From positions 1-64,000 of the forward strand of contig JAHYJC010000002.1 of NCBI GenBank assembly GCA_019429275.1: a stretch of 64,000 bases of DNA, in the 5' to 3' direction. The notes beneath the pieces are model-generated. The model worked only from the letters and a program-made list of their open reading frames with translations. It did no database searches and was not told the DNA's origin. Made by a program: the position numbers and the translations under genes. The stretch comes from Lentimicrobium sp. GTDB lineage: Bacteria > Bacteroidota > Bacteroidia > Bacteroidales > Lentimicrobiaceae. Shown one piece after another: positions 57,576 to 64,000 of the stretch (position 1 is the first letter of the stretch; every line of letters begins with the position of its first letter).

Positions 57576-57906
57576 TTTCAGTGTATTAAATATCCATTGA
57601 ATCTACTTTATAATTCAATCTGCACTAAATGAGATATTTATGCATTGGTTAATAAACATCCCGGCGCTGGCATTACTGATTATTAAATCCGCTAAATTAA
57701 TAACTGTAAAATTTTAGTTGCAACCCATACTTCACTATTGCAATATTAAAAAAAATAAAGGTATGCCGGTTTATAAAAAAATGCAAGCCATAAAAATGCA
57801 TTTCTGATAATTTTATCAAAAATATTTTCCGTTCTTTAATCCTCAAATAATTAATAAAAATCACGAAAATAAAACCGAGTAATAAATCTCATTATTGATC
57901 GAACCT
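57576..57906 (+). other. AT-rich divergent intergenic region
   Basis: 331 bases between divergent genes, strongly AT-rich, with runs of A and T. It must hold the promoters of the NSS transporter and SGNH hydrolase genes. I see no open frame, hairpin or good -33/-7 pair worth reporting. Confidence 0.5.
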
Positions 57907-58617
57907 ATGAAAATATTAAAACCCTTTATATTGAATTTAATGTTTGTTGTAATTTTCTCTACAACATTCATAAGTGCCTCAGCTCAGCAAAATCAGGAGA
58001 TTACAAAATGGGAAAATGAGGTCATGAACCTCGAAAAACTTCCATTTTCAGATAGCGAAAACACCATACTTTTTGTCGGTAGTTCGAGCATAAGATTGTG
58101 GGAAAGCATTGCCGAGGATATGTTTCCTTATCATGCAATGGCCAGAGGATACGGAGGAGCAAAACTGTCAGATTTTATTTACTATGCCCACAGGATTATC
58201 GGTCAGCATCGCTGTGGAGCCATTGCAATATTCGTGGCAAACGATATTACAGGACAATCAGGGGATCCAACTTCAGGCCAGGTGCTTAAACTTTTCAGGA
58301 AAACCGTTAAAGAAATCAGAAAAAGCCACCCCGAAATCCCGGTTTTCTGGATTGAGATCACACCTACCCCATCGCGGTGGAAAAGTTGGGAACAGATTAA
58401 TCAGGCTAATCAACTCATAAAAAAGCATTGTAACAAAAACAAAAACCTTCATTATATACCGACCAGCCAATTTTTTATGAATGAACAGGGTTTGCCTGAT
58501 GAAAAATATTTTATTTCCGACATGCTTCACCTGAATACTGAAGGTTACCGCTTATGGAGCAGTTGCATCAAGGTAACTTTTGACAAAACTGTGCCTCAAC
58601 TCAGGTCGCCAAAGTAA
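57907..58617 (+). CDS. exported SGNH/GDSL-type hydrolase
   Basis: A 236-residue protein with a signal peptide (LNLMFVVIFSTTFISASAQ) and an SGNH esterase/acyl-hydrolase fold: the block I Ser in FVGSSSIRLWE, Gly in ARGYGGAKLSDF, Asn in FVANDITGQ, and Asp/His in DMLHLNTEGY. All catalytic positions are present. Substrate could be an acetylated glycan or a lipid. ATG at 57907 gives the best signal peptide. The prophage remnant begins within about 40 bases of the stop. Confidence 0.88.
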   Translation: MKILKPFILNLMFVVIFSTTFISASAQQNQEITKWENEVMNLEKLPFSDSENTILFVGSSSIRLWESIAEDMFPYHAMARGYGGAKLSDFIYYAHRIIGQHRCGAIAIFVANDITGQSGDPTSGQVLKLFRKTVKEIRKSHPEIPVFWIEITPTPSRWKSWEQINQANQLIKKHCNKNKNLHYIPTSQFFMNEQGLPDEKYFISDMLHLNTEGYRLWSSCIKVTFDKTVPQLRSPK

Positions 58618-58655
58618 AGTAATACCTGATTTCCTAAGCTCGAAAAAAGCAATAA

Positions 58656-58742
58656 AGTAAAGCCCTCACCATAACTTTTAATCATGGTCCTGTTCCGGAA
58701 CCTGATGTCACCCCTGAGCCGGGTACGAAAAAAAAAGCCTGA
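58656..58742 (+). pseudogene. C-terminal tail of a phage protein (probably portal/gp29)
   Basis: A 28-residue open frame without a start (FNHGPVPEPDVTPEPGTKKK is its main part, then A and a stop) directly precedes and overlaps the MuF gene frame. This position is where the portal protein (Mu gp29, DUF935) ends in Mu-like prophages. The identification is by position and Pro/Lys-rich tail only. Confidence 0.3.
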
Positions 58743-59881
58743 GCCTAAATAGAGAAACCCCACTTGCAACGTTATATTTTAGCCCACACGGCGAAAATTG
58801 CGAGTGCGGGGGAAATGTACCTGTTAGGCTTAGTTTAAGCCGCAAAACAGAGATAAATACGGCCATAAGCGATATTCTTACCAACGAAACAGTAATTGCC
58901 AACCCGGGGCTTTTCAATCTCTATTTTAACGATTACCAGAAGGCCATTAACCAGGTATTCCCAAATGGGGTTAATGATGACCTTGCACGTCGGTTTAAGC
59001 TTAACATGGCTGAATTTGCCGCACACAAATCATTTAAGGCCAGCGCCGAAATTAAAGAGATTGCCAACGCCAAAGACGCACAGGCCATAGCCCGTAAATA
59101 CGAACGCTTTCAGCAGGCCGAACTAACCAGTGTAACAGCCAGGGCACGATCAGCCAGGCAGTGGCAACGTTTTGAAGAGGAAAAAGACCAGTTCCCAAAC
59201 CTCACCTGGATACGAACCCGATCCGCAACGCCACGCGAGCTGCACGCCGGTTACGTGGGCATTACCCTGCCCATGAACCATGAATTCTGGCAGAGTAACC
59301 AACCCGGAAACCTGTGGAATTGCAAATGCGACTGGAAAACAACCGATGCACCCGTAACCAACGCACCTGGCAAAATTGCTCCACCGGCACGTGGCTTAGA
59401 GGGCAACCCCTATACTACCGGTGAGCTGATTACAAATAAGCATCCATATTACAGAATTGGAGCGGATGAGGCTGAAATGATTGCTGCCGAAACGCCAATA
59501 CTTATAAGACGCCTGATGACAAAAAGTGTACTTGAATCTTCGCTGCGAAGTATTACAGTGCCGCAAACTATTATTGTGGAGGGCGTAAAAGTCAATATTA
59601 AGGTTGGCTTTAGCAGGGCGGGCATAAATCATTTTGCCCATGACTTCCATGACAACCCGGGGTATAAGAACTTACTCATAGGAGAGCTGGATAAGGTTAT
59701 GGTCAAATCAACCTTTGAAAAGAGCGCAAAGAGTTATCACATAGACAATGAAATGGTGCCTAATTACCATTATTTCAGCATTGATATACTCGGCAAAACC
59801 TGGTATTTAAACGTTAGGGAAGTGATTGGGAAAGGACAAAATAAATACATCTTACACTCAATTACTGAATATATAAAATAA
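58718..59881 (+). pseudogene. phage MuF / gp30 minor head protein with C-terminal possible nuclease domain
   Basis: An open frame of 387 codons with no ATG, GTG or TTG before 59006; a product from 59006 would have 291 residues and lack the N-terminus. Residues after the start resemble Mu gp30 / SPP1 gp7 head-morphogenesis proteins: ARRFKLNMAEFAAHKSFKA, ITLPMNHEFWQSN and the metal-site-like NLWNCKCDW. The last ~115 residues (from VEGVKVNIKVGFSRAGINHF to HSITEYIK) are unlike the head protein. They recall the Barnase/EndoU/colicin/RelE-type nuclease domains fused to MuF proteins as toxins. The gene may be a decayed fragment or may use a distant start; the domain call is tentative. Confidence 0.55.
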
Positions 59882-59951
59882 AATAGCGTCTAATCCATCA
59901 CACAAAGCTACAGGCAAAGGCTGAAATTAAACGCTATCTCGAAGTACAAAG

Positions 59952-60015
59952 ATACATTAAAAAACATCATTTACAACAAAACACTAAAAATTAATGCTAT
60001 GGAACGTAAAATTAA
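59952..60015 (+). repeat. leader direct repeat, copy 1
   Basis: A 64-base segment, starting ATACATTAAAAAACATC and ending in the codons for MERKI, is repeated 182 bases downstream at 60134-60197. Only a few positions differ, so the leader and start of one small gene were duplicated. Confidence 0.85.
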
Positions 60016-60079
60016 GAGGCTGGTGATTATCAATAATGATAAAATTTACGATTTCCCTGTAACATCAACGGCGAATTAA
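59999..60079 (+). CDS. 26-codon small open frame in the prophage remnant
   Basis: The frame starts ATG in leader copy 1 and encodes MERKIKRLVIINNDKIYDFP then VTSTAN before TAA. It shares its first five residues and the whole upstream leader with the 86-codon frame at 60181. It could be a real small phage protein or the leftover of the duplication. Its stop lies inside the left arm of a 13-bp hairpin. Confidence 0.3.
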   Translation: MERKIKRLVIINNDKIYDFPVTSTAN

Positions 60080-60100
60080 CTAAAAGCTAATTCGCCGTTG
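60066..60100 (+). other. strong hairpin (13-bp perfect stem)
   Basis: CAACGGCGAATTA and TAATTCGCCGTTG pair perfectly around a 9-nt loop. The hairpin is symmetric enough to act on both strands but has no T-run, so it is not a standard terminator. It overlaps the stop of the 26-codon frame and lies between the two leader repeats. Confidence 0.75.
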
Positions 60101-60133
60101 GATCGCCCGAGCCGCAGCCCCGACATTGCAAAT

Positions 60134-60197
60134 ATACATTAAAAAACATCATTTACAACAACCCCGCAAAAATTAATGCTATGGAACGTAAAATTGA
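60134..60197 (+). repeat. leader direct repeat, copy 2
   Basis: The second copy of the leader repeat described at 59952. It supplies the leader and first codons of the 86-codon frame at 60181. Confidence 0.85.
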
Positions 60198-60441
60198 GAT
60201 TAATCTTCAGCGGTTAATTGATTTAACAAATCCTCAAAATCGCTCTGCGCGAGAGGAAGCTCTGCAAGAAAAAATCGAAGAGCTTGTTTTTCAGCAATTT
60301 CTAAGCCTTTTAAAAACTCATGGCGTTGGCCAGGCTTCAGTTGCTCCACCAGTGCAACAACGCCTCCCTTCAAAGCTTCTTGCCTGGCTTTTGGCAGTAA
60401 AAGCTCGCCTAAGAGGTAATGGTTCAATTCATTTTGAGTAG
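60181..60441 (+). CDS. small phage open frame, 86 codons (one of two overlapping options)
   Basis: It uses the start supplied by leader copy 2 and encodes a helical, charged N-terminal half (SAREEALQEKIEELVFQQFL) and a more basic C-terminal half. It points the same way as the neighbouring head-region genes. An equally long frame on the minus strand (60200-60463) overlaps it fully, so only one is likely real. No family is recognised for either. Confidence 0.4.
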   Translation: MERKIEINLQRLIDLTNPQNRSAREEALQEKIEELVFQQFLSLLKTHGVGQASVAPPVQQRLPSKLLAWLLAVKARLRGNGSIHFE

Positions 60442-60463
60442 TTTGCATATTCTCTTTATTCAT
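60200..60463 (-). CDS. small open frame, 87 codons (alternative to the plus-strand frame)
   Basis: It starts ATG at 60463 (or 60448) and encodes a helix-rich acidic protein with segments such as ELNHYLLGELLLPKARQEAL and AEKQALRFFLAELPLAQ. Residue composition looks more protein-like than the opposite frame, but the neighbouring head genes run the other way. The function is unknown. It could be a regulator or a moron. Confidence 0.4.
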   Translation of the reverse strand: MNKENMQTTQNELNHYLLGELLLPKARQEALKGGVVALVEQLKPGQRHEFLKGLEIAEKQALRFFLAELPLAQSDFEDLLNQLTAED

Positions 60464-60505
60464 TAATTGGAATAACCATGCATTGTAACCCAAAACACAA
60501 AATAA

Positions 60506-60961
60506 ATGACACCGGACGAGTACAAGAAGATACTGCAAAGGCAGGCGCAAAGAATTAAAAAGGCCGTGACACGCAATCTTCCAATCAGTATTGGCAAGAA
60601 AGCCGTTGATATTTATACCGAAAACTTTCAAAAAGAGGGCTTTCAGAATGCCAACTTTGAGCCCTGGAAGGAGGTGAAGCGGCGACAGAACCCACGTACC
60701 AAAGGGGCAGCGAAAAAGCGCAAAATACTCACCGGCAAAACCGGCGACCTTGGCCGAAGCATTAAATATGAAACAGGCTCCGCACAGGTAACCATTTATA
60801 GCGATGTGCCTTATGCCGCCGTGCACAACGAAGGGTTAAGGGCTGGCCGTGGCAAAGGTTTTCAAATGCCCAAACGGCAGTTTATTGGCGATAGCCTCGA
60901 AGTGGACGAAATGATTGAGCGTGAAATTGACAATGTGTTGAACCAAATACTAAATATCTGA
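60506..60961 (+). CDS. phage virion morphogenesis protein (Mu gpG-like)
   Basis: A 151-residue protein of the phage virion morphogenesis / tail completion family. The basic region NFEPWKEVKRRQNPRTKGAA, then KILTGKTGDLGRSIKYE, SDVPYAAVHNEGL and MPKRQFIGDS are the family pattern in order. It joins heads and tails in Mu-like phages. Full length and intact, on the plus strand after the MuF frame, which is the normal order in Mu-like phages. The next frame starts 2 bases after its stop. Confidence 0.85.
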   Translation: MTPDEYKKILQRQAQRIKKAVTRNLPISIGKKAVDIYTENFQKEGFQNANFEPWKEVKRRQNPRTKGAAKKRKILTGKTGDLGRSIKYETGSAQVTIYSDVPYAAVHNEGLRAGRGKGFQMPKRQFIGDSLEVDEMIEREIDNVLNQILNI

Positions 60962-60963
60962 TT

Positions 60964-61158
60964 ATGGATACCTACACCGCTTTTTCGCTATTGAAAGAAC
61001 GTTTAAACGACATTGCAAGCGTTTTTCAATACACAGGGCAGTACCTGACCGACAAAACAAAAACCCGATATAAGGTACCGGCGTTATACGTTGAGTTTGT
61101 GCCAAACCCTGCAGTGGTAAACTTTCAAGCCGCTGAAGCTCCCTTTGCGTTTGCCTGA
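60964..61158 (+). pseudogene. truncated phage protein downstream of gpG
   Basis: The 64-codon frame starts MDTYTAFSLLKERLNDIASV and includes KVPALYVEFVPNPAVVNF. The N-terminal part looks like a genuine phage tail-region protein. After about codon 55 the sequence turns into the complement of a tape-measure gene, so the gene is cut by a rearrangement near 61120. Confidence 0.6.
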
Positions 61159-61390
61159 TCATACCGTTATACTTGCGGATATGATCTTCCCTGAATGCGC
61201 TATTGCGGGCTGTGGTCATACGGTCGAGCCTTGACCTTAAGTCGTCAATACTATTTTTAATGGGTTTCACCGCACCGTTCATCTTGCGGGCCTGCTCTGC
61301 AGCCTGCCCCATTTTATCAGCTATCTCACGCATTGGGCGTGAAATTTTGTCAATAAAACTGAAAATTACTTGAACATTGCGATTACCCAT
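61125..61390 (-). pseudogene. N-terminal fragment of a phage tape measure protein
   Basis: On the minus strand from ATG 61390 the frame begins MGNRNVQVIFSFIDKISRPM and continues through a coiled-coil start (ADKMGQAAEQARKMNGAVKP) for about 88 codons, typical of tape measure proteins, which are normally many hundreds of residues long. It is cut near 61125, where it meets the plus-strand fragment. The upstream genes on the same strand (chaperone with frameshift, tail tube) are in the normal phage order. Confidence 0.75.
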
Positions 61391-61413
61391 TGTCTTTTTT
61401 GTACTTTTGTTAC

Positions 61414-61692
61414 ATGCAAGTTATTTTTACCATATTGGCCATAATTGGCACTTTAGCACTGGGGTATTTAATCTTACGGGGGCTTGGCTATTCCTTCCTG
61501 GCACTTGTAAAGGGGCTTTTTATTTTCCTCACTCGCCCGGCTATCCTTTTGTTTTGCCTTGCACTTTCAGCCGGAGCCCTGGCTATTTTAATCTATGGCC
61601 ATTTTTCCTTTTTGTCGGTGGTTATCGCCGGTGGCATGGTGGGCTTTGTGGTTGGCATTGCCCGTAAGTGGATTGCCAGGGTTTCAGATTAG
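61414..61692 (+). CDS. small membrane protein within the prophage remnant
   Basis: A 92-residue hydrophobic protein with about three membrane helices (VIFTILAIIGTLALGYLIL, PAILLFCLALSAGALAILIY, FLSVVIAGGMVGFVVGIARK) and a basic C-terminus. It lies opposite to the tail genes, between tape measure and chaperone, and overlaps the end of the frameshifted chaperone product by 4 bases. Such opposite-strand insertions in phage genomes are often morons; a holin is another option. No family is recognised. Confidence 0.5.
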   Translation: MQVIFTILAIIGTLALGYLILRGLGYSFLALVKGLFIFLTRPAILLFCLALSAGALAILIYGHFSFLSVVIAGGMVGFVVGIARKWIARVSD

Positions 61693-61858
61693 CCTTTATT
61701 TTCGCCCTCCTTTCTTCTGATAATTTTCAACCGGGCTAATGCTGCACACCATTCAACATCCGTAAGTTGCGAGGCATCAACGTGCAAGTAATATTGTATA
61801 GCTGTGTCATAGAGCCCTACCCAGTTTTTAGGCTCGTTTTTATCAGCCTCGGTTAAAG
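61689..61858 (-). CDS. -1 frame extension of the tail assembly chaperone (gpGT-type)
   Basis: After slippage at the heptamer the ribosome would read about 56 further codons (ALTEADKNEPKNWVGLYDTA onward, to KEGENKG) and stop at 61689. The extension has no start codon of its own at a useful place, and protein-like composition. Together with the 99 zero-frame codons it gives a fusion of about 155 residues. This is the gpGT arrangement established for lambda and for many tailed phages, though the two phages' heptamers differ. Confidence 0.7.
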
Positions 61859-62155
61859 CTTTTTTAGCTCGGCCTCCTTCACCTCAACCAGTTCGGCAAG
61901 TTTGCCGGCAACGCCAAGAAAAAGTTCATCGTTGGTTTTGATTTCCTCATCACCGGCCACCCAGCAGTTGGTGAGCATCATTTCTGAAAACTTAATGGGG
62001 TCATTGGCGCCTACAGTGGTGGCCATTGATATTACTTTAAGGCTGGGCTTTTTGAGAATGCAGGATTTATCTTCCACGGTTACCATGAATAGGTCGCCGT
62101 GCTGTTTTTTCCAAACATCAATTTGTTCCTGGGTGGGGTTGAATCTTTTTTCCAT
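61853..62155 (-). CDS. phage tail assembly chaperone (gpG-type, zero frame)
   Basis: A 100-residue protein (MEKRFNPTQEQIDVWKKQHG start, KLAELVEVKEAELKKL end) between the tail tube and tape measure genes, the invariant place of tail assembly chaperones. A slippery heptamer A AAA AAG sits three codons before its stop, in the correct frame to give a longer -1 product (next entry). The chaperone would coat the tape measure during tail assembly. The reading frame is intact although the surrounding prophage is not. Confidence 0.75.
   Translation of the reverse strand: MEKRFNPTQEQIDVWKKQHGDLFMVTVEDKSCILKKPSLKVISMATTVGANDPIKFSEMMLTNCWVAGDEEIKTNDELFLGVAGKLAELVEVKEAELKKL
61859..61865 (-). promoter_or_regulatory. 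programmed -1 frameshift site A AAA AAG
   Basis: On the minus strand the zero-frame codons are CTA AAA AAG CTT TAA, so the heptamer A AAA AAG is in register. It is the same heptamer as in E. coli dnaX. The zero-frame stop follows two codons later, and the -1 frame stays open for 56 codons. Confidence 0.75.
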
Positions 62156-62180
62156 GTCAGTTGCATTTAAAGATTAAGCC

Positions 62181-62203
62181 CCCGCCACGTTTTTCGTGGC
62201 GGG
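62181..62203 (-). other. intergenic hairpin between tail tube and chaperone genes
   Basis: CCCGCCACG and CGTGGCGGG pair over 9 bp with a 5-nt T loop. No T-run follows on the minus strand, so it is more likely an mRNA stability or partial-termination element than a full terminator. Confidence 0.55.
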
Positions 62204-62210
62204 AGGCGGG

Positions 62211-62441
62211 TTAAACGTTATAATCAATGGCTAAGCACTTGAAGGGCATCGAAACTTCCATATCGCTATCTCCCTGCTTCATGGCTTTTTCAAATTCCTG
62301 AAGCTTCACGCCTACCAATACATCGGTGCGTAATACGCCAAGTTTTTCAAAACTGATGGCCACGTTGAACTGTGGCAGGTCGGTGGGGTCGCTTCCGGGA
62401 ACAACTTGTTGCGACTTGATTAAAAATCCGGGTATATCATG
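62211..62441 (-). pseudogene. C-terminal fragment of a phage tail tube protein
   Basis: The minus-strand frame has no start and enters from the junction with the dipeptidase gene. It reads DLPQFNVAISFEKLGVLRTD, VLVGVKLQEFEKAMKQGDSD and MEVSMPFKCLAIDYNV before TAA. This resembles the end of major tail tube proteins of contractile-tail phages, and position before the chaperone supports it. The 5' part was lost when the remnant's right end formed. Confidence 0.6.
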
Positions 62442-64000
62442 CTATTTCTTTGCAGGAGTCAGTAATTTTTCGCCGGTCTGTTCAATTACTTTTTGTTTCC
62501 ATGCATCAGGGTAGCCGGGGAAAGAAGGTGGCTGGGGATAACCCCATGGGTTACGCAGAAATTCACCATCCTTTTCCTGCTTTACATTTCCATCGAGATA
62601 TTTTACCAGCAAAAATTCTCCCAGTTTACGCCAGCGCGAAACCGTTGACTCCGCTGTTTTGCCCGAATAAGCCGTAAGATGTTCTCTGGCCCTGTCGGGA
62701 TCTGATTTATAAATTTCCAGGGCTTTGCGATCTACTTCCGGAATTTCAGCAATAAACTGATTCTCAAGTTCCGATTGCAATTGCCTTAGATCGGGCATTA
62801 CCCGGTTATAAAAAAGATAAGTAAAATGAGCCACCCTGTTAAAAACCCAGAAAGCGGCTGTTTCGGAATAAGTCAATATATCGCCATTTCCTTCAGCAAC
62901 ACAGGTTGGAACGCTTTGTATTCCACAATAAAACGGCATATAAACTGTAGAACCTGCATCATCAACTCCAAACCAGAAAATGCCTCCGATATGATCGGGC
63001 AGCCAGTCGCGCATCTGGGCTATGAAGGAAAAACCGGTTTGTTGAGTTGCAGTTACACGCTCATTAAAATACTCTTTTCCTTCATATTTCCATGTGAGTG
63101 GACGCCAGCGGTATGGTAGTCCAAAGGGGCCTGCGCCTATATCCTGCGACATATCCAAAGCAGTACCCTGCAGGTAATCGCGTTTGAAATTCATCAGGTC
63201 ATTCACGCTTAGTTTACGGTCGGGTTTAATATAAAGTGGCATTCTTTCATTTTCTATTGCTCCGGCAGCGTAATCATAGTATTTATGCATCTCACTACTA
63301 ACATGGTTAAACATTGACCAAACCCTGAGTTCACAAAACCGGGCAGCGCTAAACTCCAGGGGAGCATAAACATCACTGAAACTAAATTCGCTGTCTTTTC
63401 CGGTAAAGTAACCCTTTTCACGGGCAAATGAAATGACATCATGTGCATAAATTACTTCAACATCAGGAGTATTAATTAATTTGAAATTTTTACTACTAAT
63501 GGAGGTTTTGCCATCATCGGGTTTGAAATTTGTTATGCGTGCATGATTTGCATGAGCTGAAATATACCCATCGGGAATGCGGATTGCCACCCATACTGCA
63601 CCTTTATCGGCATTGATCAGCTTTTTGGTTTTCTTATCAGTTACCATTCGATTACCTTTTCCAATGATTTCCATTATCCAGACTTCGTTGGCATCGGCGA
63701 TGGAAAAAGATTCTCCCGAACTTGCATAACCATACTTTTCAACCAATTCAGCTATGACCTGTATGGCTTCCCTGGCGGTTTTTGAACGTTGTAAAGCAAG
63801 GAACATCAGGCTTCCATAATCAACGATTCCGGTAGTATCAACCAGCTCGCTGCGGCCATCAAACGTTGTTTCACCCATAGCAACCTGGTGTTCATTCATA
63901 AAACCAATTACCTGATAGGTGTGAGACGGCTGAGGGATCTGACCCAAAGGTTTGGCAGTGCCCCTGTCATAAAGTGTTATCATGCTACCTTCGGGCCAAT
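62442..64000 (-). CDS. C69-family dipeptidase (partial, 5' end beyond window)
   Basis: A partial gene of about 519 codons. The visible part starts WPEGSMITLYDRG at the right edge and contains HTYQVIGFMNEHQVAMGETT, the PDRKLSVNDLMNFKRDY region and DHIGGIFWFGVDDA, all typical of peptidase family C69 (U34). The catalytic N-terminal Cys and any signal peptide lie outside the window. Members hydrolyse dipeptides, often in the periplasm. The stop codon TAG at 62442 directly abuts the prophage remnant, so the element inserted or rearranged exactly at the gene's end without cutting it. Confidence 0.9.
   Translation of the reverse strand, partial: WPEGSMITLYDRGTAKPLGQIPQPSHTYQVIGFMNEHQVAMGETTFDGRSELVDTTGIVDYGSLMFLALQRSKTAREAIQVIAELVEKYGYASSGESFSIADANEVWIMEIIGKGNRMVTDKKTKKLINADKGAVWVAIRIPDGYISAHANHARITNFKPDDGKTSISSKNFKLINTPDVEVIYAHDVISFAREKGYFTGKDSEFSFSDVYAPLEFSAARFCELRVWSMFNHVSSEMHKYYDYAAGAIENERMPLYIKPDRKLSVNDLMNFKRDYLQGTALDMSQDIGAGPFGLPYRWRPLTWKYEGKEYFNERVTATQQTGFSFIAQMRDWLPDHIGGIFWFGVDDAGSTVYMPFYCGIQSVPTCVAEGNGDILTYSETAAFWVFNRVAHFTYLFYNRVMPDLRQLQSELENQFIAEIPEVDRKALEIYKSDPDRAREHLTAYSGKTAESTVSRWRKLGEFLLVKYLDGNVKQEKDGEFLRNPWGYPQPPSFPGYPDAWKQKVIEQTGEKLLTPAKK

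Follow-up and report, generated by a model that had tools for sequence, protein, structure and literature searches.

The 64,000-nucleotide (nt) stretch of Lentimicrobium sp. DNA analysed here (GenBank assembly GCA_019429275.1, contig JAHYJC010000002.1, positions 1 to 64,000; the window below) carries, inside the remains of a prophage, what is very probably a real -1 programmed-frameshift cassette of a gpG/gpGT-type tail assembly chaperone from a Mu-like contractile-tailed Bacteroidota phage. Judged by sequence, the cassette is defined by its slip site, the open -1 frame, the homology of both frames, the gene order, the synonymous constraint on the slip codons and a Shine-Dalgarno (SD)-like element.

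The probable frameshift cassette in the window

The zero frame encodes a gpG-like tail assembly chaperone of 100 amino acids (aa) (minus strand, 61853..62155; hereafter G). Its final codons read GAG CTA AAA AAG CTT TAA, the stop codon being at 61855..61853, and they contain the slippery heptamer A_AAA_AAG (minus strand, 61859..61865) in register as X_XXY_YYZ. An earlier note, made from the letters of the window alone, had reported this heptamer within 61689-62155, and the coordinates and content that it gave proved to be exact. The -1 frame opens at 61883 and closes with a stop ending at 61689. The extension that follows the re-read base, a guanine (minus strand, 61689..61859; hereafter T) is 56 codons plus the stop, which gives a predicted G-T fusion of 155 aa. 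The heptamer is accompanied by two candidate stimulators, namely the SD-like AAGGAGG upstream (minus strand, 61873..61879), ending 7 nt before it, and a stem-loop downstream (minus strand, 61800..61848), the first pair of which is at the 11th nt after it.

The -1 frame had also been described as staying open for 56 codons into protein-like sequence, and this is borne out by comparison with relatives. A profile made of 110 relatives' extensions, with the window excluded, matches the -1 frame of the window and no other (58 bits, 1.7e-19), the 0 and +1 frames scoring -1.4 and -3.0 bits. T might of course be produced separately, from a start codon of its own or through termination-reinitiation, with no frameshift involved. 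SD-like stretches do lie upstream, and ATG, GTG or TTG occurs in the -1 frame near the junction in 42 of 122 copies of the gene pair, but such a start is missing from the other 80, the window included, those present are of mixed kind, and the fixation of A_AAN at the slip position would be left unexplained. In the window none of the three codons is found in the -1 frame from its opening to about 15 codons beyond the G stop, which makes separate initiation of T there unlikely; for the family as a whole we consider this explanation very improbable.

Identity of G and T and gene order in relatives

The window G matches PHROG 19076 (2.8e-35), for which no function is named, and so do 28 of the 28 relatives scanned. 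None of 28 G sequences matched a Pfam family, and 35 of 36 T sequences had no PHROG match; the pair has therefore probably been missed by annotation in Bacteroidota phages. A match of the window T to PHROG 38106 (0.001) was dropped as support, being shared by just one of the 36 T sequences. The AlphaFold2 model of G (predicted local distance difference test, pLDDT, 92.9) matches 3fgx (Z 8.9), YqbN 3klu (Z 5.1) and the HK97 tail assembly chaperone 2ob9 (Z 4.9), where 3klu and 3fgx are structures that we take to be chaperone relatives. From this predicted structure it can be said with moderate confidence that G has the tail assembly chaperone fold. The window T extension is modelled as two helices (mean pLDDT 88.7).

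In two annotated relatives the DUF2586 tail sheath gene is followed by a small tube-like gene, then by G/T and then by the tape measure gene. The tube-like gene, which lies between sheath and G, encodes 138 and 141 aa in these two relatives, and its position favours tube identity; the tape measure proteins of relatives are about 470-960 aa long. Of three records of relatives, two (both Parabacteroides-type) hold a Mu portal alongside the chaperone; in the third, G160, none was found. The gene order, together with the sheath and the Mu portal, therefore points to Mu-like contractile-tailed phages. The window keeps the same arrangement, with a tube fragment upstream and a tape measure fragment downstream, so the placement of the cassette between tail tube and tape measure holds. 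The earlier note had called this the invariant site of gpG/gpGT. That is right as regards position; the mode of shifting varies, as passages of PMC5009743 describe a -2 shift in phage Mu and a very likely +1 shift in one haloarchaeal virus, and those of PMC2628397 report that no tail chaperone frameshift was found in the Mu-like phage KS10.

Conservation of the slip site

Relatives of the zero-frame protein were found in 15 of 198 related genomes, and a profile of G recovered 13 of 395 phylum genomes and 15 of 395 class genomes, the window's own genome being among the hits in each. The single G sequence as query matched 23 viral contigs and 17 genome contigs, and the profile matched 186 viral contigs, of which the best 80 were kept. 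Out of 167 loci, 162 had a G match (L057 and L152-L155 were dropped for having none), and removal of exact and >95% alike copies left 129 non-redundant copies, window included.

Aligning these tail chaperones, as the earlier note had proposed, we found the slip position to be held. At the homologous place 57 of the 129 copies have A_AAA_AAN (A_AAA_AAG in 36, A_AAA_AAA in 17, A_AAA_AAC and A_AAA_AAT in two each) and 56 have another A_AAN (A_AAG in 41, A_AAC in 10, A_AAT in 4 and A_AAA in 1). No X_XXY_YYZ heptamer is present in the last codons of 50 of these 56 (40 A_AAG and 10 A_AAC); the six that do have one carry G_GGA_AAG (L125), A_AAT_TTN (the four AAT copies) or A_AAA_AAC one codon later (L166). 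Homologues lacking the heptamer had been named in advance as evidence that would speak against frameshifting. Taken literally such homologues abound, since 72 of 129 copies are without A_AAA_AAN, yet 67 of the 72 keep a -1 open reading frame (ORF) of at least 45 codons and 56 of the 72 keep A_AAN at the homologous place. In other words, what is conserved is the slip position, the heptamer being one of the forms it takes, and the lack of the heptamer does not amount to a refutation.

Some of the remaining copies have alternatives close by. L117 carries T_TTT_TTG near the slip position in place of A_AAN, and L150 has GGGGGAA, which is no formal heptamer; passages of PMC10885494 report the GGGGGAA pattern as common among tail chaperone slip sites. 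In L005 and L044 A_AAG lies one codon earlier, and in L014 and L148 A_AAA_AAA is found farther upstream. As a separate observation, the G of L034 (2519-2764; identical with L048, Prevotella aurantiaca) is broken: its zero frame ends early and is followed by an 18-codon -1 extension with no slip site.

Synonymous codons are fixed at the slip position. Lys-Lys there, counted regardless of motif, is written with AAA first and a preceding A in 53 of 53 cases. Ahead of Lys or Asn, all 34 Val codons at this position are GTA, which makes up 32% of Val codons elsewhere in G, and ahead of Lys all 18 Glu codons are GAA (65% elsewhere). On a tree of 106 rows, from which the long-G copies and most rows of the class "other" were left out, the two main slip classes need at least 10 changes, 2 of them forced by well-supported branches.

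Shifting by one tRNA on A_AAG is known, according to passages of PMC5009743 and PMC4066793; the latter list A_AAC among ten tetramers that are barely or not shift-prone in E. coli. This makes the ten GTA_AAC copies odd (L006, L010, L077, L081, L105, L106, L112, L126, L129 and L133), in which GTA AAC is followed by TT without a two-tRNA heptamer. All 14 copies that carry GTA AAC or GTA AAT continue with TTA, TTG or TTT. With GTA AAT this yields the formal heptamer A_AAT_TTN (4 of 4), whereas with GTA AAC none is formed, and the TT after GTA AAC may reflect avoidance of proline in the T frame.

The runs of A at these sites bear on a further explanation, in which the two frames would be joined by transcriptional slippage and not by ribosomal frameshifting. 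According to passages of PMC3711429, A/T runs can indeed cause such slippage, but the run in the window is six A long, the runs are just three or four A long in 55 of the 56 copies that carry another A_AAN, and we attach scarcely any weight to this possibility.

As a control we used 750 other plus-strand ORF ends (ORFs of at least 100 codons) from related loci. A -1 extension of at least 50 codons follows 262 of them, an in-register X_XXY_YYZ (Y = A/T) occurs within the last five codons in 31, and both features coincide in 9. Extensions of at least 50 codons are found in 122 of 127 G ORFs with a closable extension (window included), and 36 aligned extensions share a common core around LRYYxHIDPDxLxDEEWA. 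In 38 of 129 copies the -1 frame opens just 13 nt ahead of the G stop, so that any shift there is confined to the last four codons. The explanation that G just stops at its TAA, with a -1 frame that chance has left open, keeps a practically negligible probability: neither a heptamer nor a long extension alone is rare in the controls, but the -1 protein sequence is conserved in more than 100 diverged copies, the slip codons are synonymously fixed and the frame-specific match of the window to the profile strongly opposes it.

Upstream element and downstream folding

The AAGGAGG of the window pairs with CCUCCU at -8.6 kcal/mol, with a spacing of 7 to the heptamer. By a rule closely modelled on the published one, an SD-like stimulator is present in 66 of the 108 copies used for this count, compared with 20% of 6912 control positions in G. 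Much of this excess could be due to the Lys-Glu-Ala-Glu peptide encoded there alone, and the synonymous codons were therefore redrawn by the family's own usage. The randomisation, like the folding described below, used 111 of the 129 copies, 16 "other" and 2 open-ended copies being left out. The mean pairing with the anti-SD sequence is -4.80 kcal/mol in real copies versus -3.18 in redrawn ones (n=111, one-sided p 3e-9); none of eight control windows placed along G gave a pairing excess (smallest p 0.077). Glu at the seventh codon from the G end is GAG in 51 of 76 cases, compared with 33% for Glu codons before a G elsewhere (122 copies were used for the Glu codon count). Pairing of -6 or better, counted as strong, occurs in 35 of 111 copies, and in 28 of these the spacing is 7 nt; the SD-like element is thus common, not universal. 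The ten copies in which G is long and of the Flavobacterium type do not show the bias (p 0.58), and no correlation was found between SD strength and hairpin strength (rho 0.15, p 0.12). In the Flavobacterium-type relatives L033, L035, L036, L038, L050 and L053-L055, G is about 180 aa long and has an extra stretch before the slip site.

Downstream of the slip site, copies of the heptamer class (n=55) fold with a mean z of -1.67 versus 0.06, -0.01 and -0.51 in three control stretches, and support for downstream folding at the family level is limited to this class. In Flavobacterium-type copies a hairpin lies just after the heptamer. Three of its pairs are changed on both sides and 0 of 500 shuffles reach its covariation score, but 60 of 500 reach that pair count; the alignment has 7 distinct rows (L033 and L038 are identical there) and the structure was taken from one row.

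Points against and the proposed mechanism

Several observations weigh against the interpretation given here. The copies are non-independent samples, and all p-values ignore their shared descent. At the homologous place, 16 of the 129 copies have no A_AAN; the slip place of L013, L130, L145, L163 and L165 is unexplained, and the -1 extensions of L034, L143, L144, L146 and L147 are shorter than 20 codons. Foldseek alone gives no PDB match for the G model below E 0.01, the best being 3fgx at E 1.2e-2, while 2ob9_B and 3klu both have E 1.9. For the tube-like gene, a PHROG of "major head protein" outscores that of "tail protein". The downstream folding of the class with another A_AAN (n=56) has a mean z of -0.70 versus -0.15, -0.23 and -0.71 in the controls, which is no better than in one upstream control (-0.71). 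The stem-loop of the window itself is weak, with -13.1 to -13.8 kcal/mol and a z that varies from -0.07 to -2.4 by the stretch folded. Of the two kinds of stimulator that the earlier note had suggested looking for, an SD-like element upstream is thus present in the window, and the stem-loop is a candidate.

Slippage, its rate and its stimulation by the SD-like element and the hairpin are inferred, as follows. Most ribosomes would read G and terminate at TAA (61855..61853). In a minority, tRNA-Lys on AAA AAG would slip one base back at A_AAA_AAG and translation would continue in the T frame to 61689, yielding the 155-aa fusion. On the lambda model, the role of G would be to coat the tape measure protein, with T bringing in the tube subunits. 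In intact relatives, a -1 slip at A_AAA_AAG or another A_AAN would likewise yield the G-T fusion as a minor product used in tail assembly, with SD-like pull from upstream possibly helping in many of them and a hairpin in some.

What gives the locus wider interest is the SD-like element, since ribosomes of the class Bacteroidia are reported to sequester the anti-SD and to be largely SD-blind (passages of PMC8710568). The same passages state that the prfB +1 site with its SD-like element is kept in 523 of 726 Bacteroidia genomes. It is tempting to speculate, though only tentatively, that in Bacteroidota phages an SD-like stimulator about 7 nt upstream drives the -1 shift even though the anti-SD is hidden at initiation, the latter being freed during elongation or stalling, and that the one GTA_AAC branch (10 of 129 copies) points to other slip rules of the ribosomes or tRNAs. 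The SD-like bias provides a second test case, beside prfB, for whether a hidden anti-SD acts in elongation.

The prophage relic and its neighbours

The cassette lies in a phage-derived insert of 3.8 kb (58618..62441) between two host genes: a hydrolase gene, putatively SGNH-like from a reading of its motifs (plus strand, 57895-58617), and a C69 peptidase gene (minus strand, 62442-63983; Pfam 8.2e-67). Of 18 other genomes of the genus, 4 have the two genes side by side without an insert; for the remaining 14, the 1.5 kb or so covered beside the peptidase gene showed no hydrolase gene. Both tail genes next to the cassette are truncated. The tail tube gene (minus strand, 62211..62435) retains about 74 C-terminal residues and the tape measure gene (minus strand, 61102..61390) about 95 N-terminal residues, recognised by phrog_28 (8.7e-5) and by tblastn to the tape measure starts of relatives; its truncation junction lies somewhere around 61,100-61,160. 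The description of a decayed prophage is therefore apt. The further claim that the system is intact inside it goes too far, as both expected partners are broken and just the chaperone ORF pair is undamaged. Neither the DUF2586 sheath nor the Mu portal was found in the window's genome by searches that match three of three and two of three other records, respectively. A second copy of the insert was not found elsewhere in the genome either. One of the searches behind these negatives, other than the two just given for sheath and portal, had no positive control.

Two further phage genes are located on the plus strand. One encodes a phage virion morphogenesis protein (Phage_tail_S; 60506..60961; Pfam 5e-15, above the cut-off; phrog_26, 9.2e-23). 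The other encodes a Mu F-like minor head protein with an LPD3-like C-terminus (58718..59881; ATG at 59006, frame open from 58718), which matches phrog_19194 (2.3e-32) and the corresponding Parabacteroides prophage gene (2.3e-19), and also Pfam Phage_Mu_F (1e-5) and LPD3 (5.5e-4), neither of which reaches the curated cut-off. The head and tail modules are divergent in the Parabacteroides relative and convergent in the window. An inversion inferred from the mere difference in strand was rejected, the modules being naturally divergent in that relative; only the convergent order is abnormal, and the relic must therefore have arisen by more than simple truncation. The order may result from a deletion across two neighbouring copies or from an inversion. 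The repeat search of the window listed no strong repeat that would explain the internal junction. Between the F-like and Phage_tail_S genes there is a 71-nt direct repeat of 90% identity, its copies 182 nt apart (59947-60017 and 60129-60199, plus strand), and between these copies a 16-nt inverted repeat with a 3-nt loop and 94% complementarity (60066-60100).

Could the relic have been kept under selection, for instance for a domesticated tail-derived function, and not be decaying by chance? The G, T, Phage_tail_S and F-like ORFs are all undamaged within 3.8 kb, but no G relative was found in 18 other genomes of the genus, both partners of the chaperone are truncated, and the damage consists of deletion and rearrangement, so that undamaged ORFs may just reflect a recent event. 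Undamaged frames need not mean selection or function, and we assign this explanation a very slim probability. The window copy probably has no function; with no complete partner for its product, the locus is best seen as a relic and not a working tail system.

Between T and the tape measure fragment there is an opposite-strand ORF encoding a hydrophobic protein of about 100 aa (plus strand, 61390..61692; ATG near 61414). Gaps of more than 150 nt at this place occur in 22 of the 76 related loci in which a tape measure start was found, and 18 of the 22 hold an opposite-strand ORF of at least 60 codons with a hydrophobic 19-residue stretch (mean hydropathy of at least 2.4), a count that has no chance control. 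Examples are L024 (6445-6759, minus strand), L042, L068, L085, L090, L123, L132 and others; those of L042, L085 and L132 have a similar ending, WLSYPSPLNSWGLWN in L042. Accessory membrane genes, for instance for superinfection exclusion, may have a hot spot in this gap.

Comparison with known systems

The locus represents ordinary phage biology, since tail chaperones with programmed frameshift are widespread. Both mechanism and gene are of known kinds, and the family is a poorly annotated branch that offers naturally occurring variants of a slip site at a single codon position. We found no description of its frameshift in the open-access literature searched.

The lambda/HK97-type gpG/gpGT systems are similar in their fold, as the predicted G structure matches the HK97 chaperone 2ob9 (Z 4.9) and YqbN 3klu (Z 5.1). 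Unlike lambda, the window family belongs to contractile-tailed phages, and its G falls into PHROG 19076, with no function named and no Pfam family; lambda's own slip motif also differs from that of the window family. Phage Mu is similar in gene content: the relatives include two Parabacteroides-type records with a Mu portal, homologues of Mu F-like and Phage_tail_S proteins, and the DUF2586 tail sheath. However, Mu shifts by -2 (passages of PMC5009743), whereas the conserved extension of the window family is in the -1 frame. The Flavobacterium phage fF4-like transposable phages, described in passages of PMC7761591, are similar in being Mu-like myoviruses of Bacteroidetes; the words "frameshift" and "chaperone" have 0 occurrences each in the main text of that source.

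As to the signal, E. coli dnaX and IS911-type sites have the same A_AAA_AAG, an upstream SD-like element and a downstream stem-loop, the last being a candidate in the window (passages of PMC3711429 and PMC4066793). They differ in that the hosts here are Bacteroidota, with the anti-SD reported as sequestered in Bacteroidia (PMC8710568, in part), and in that 56 of the 129 copies use another A_AAN. Bacteroidia prfB resembles the window family in having a conserved SD-like element at a frameshift site in largely SD-blind hosts, according to the same source. The difference is that prfB is an autoregulatory release-factor gene with a +1 shift, whereas here a phage morphogenetic gene would make use of a -1 shift.
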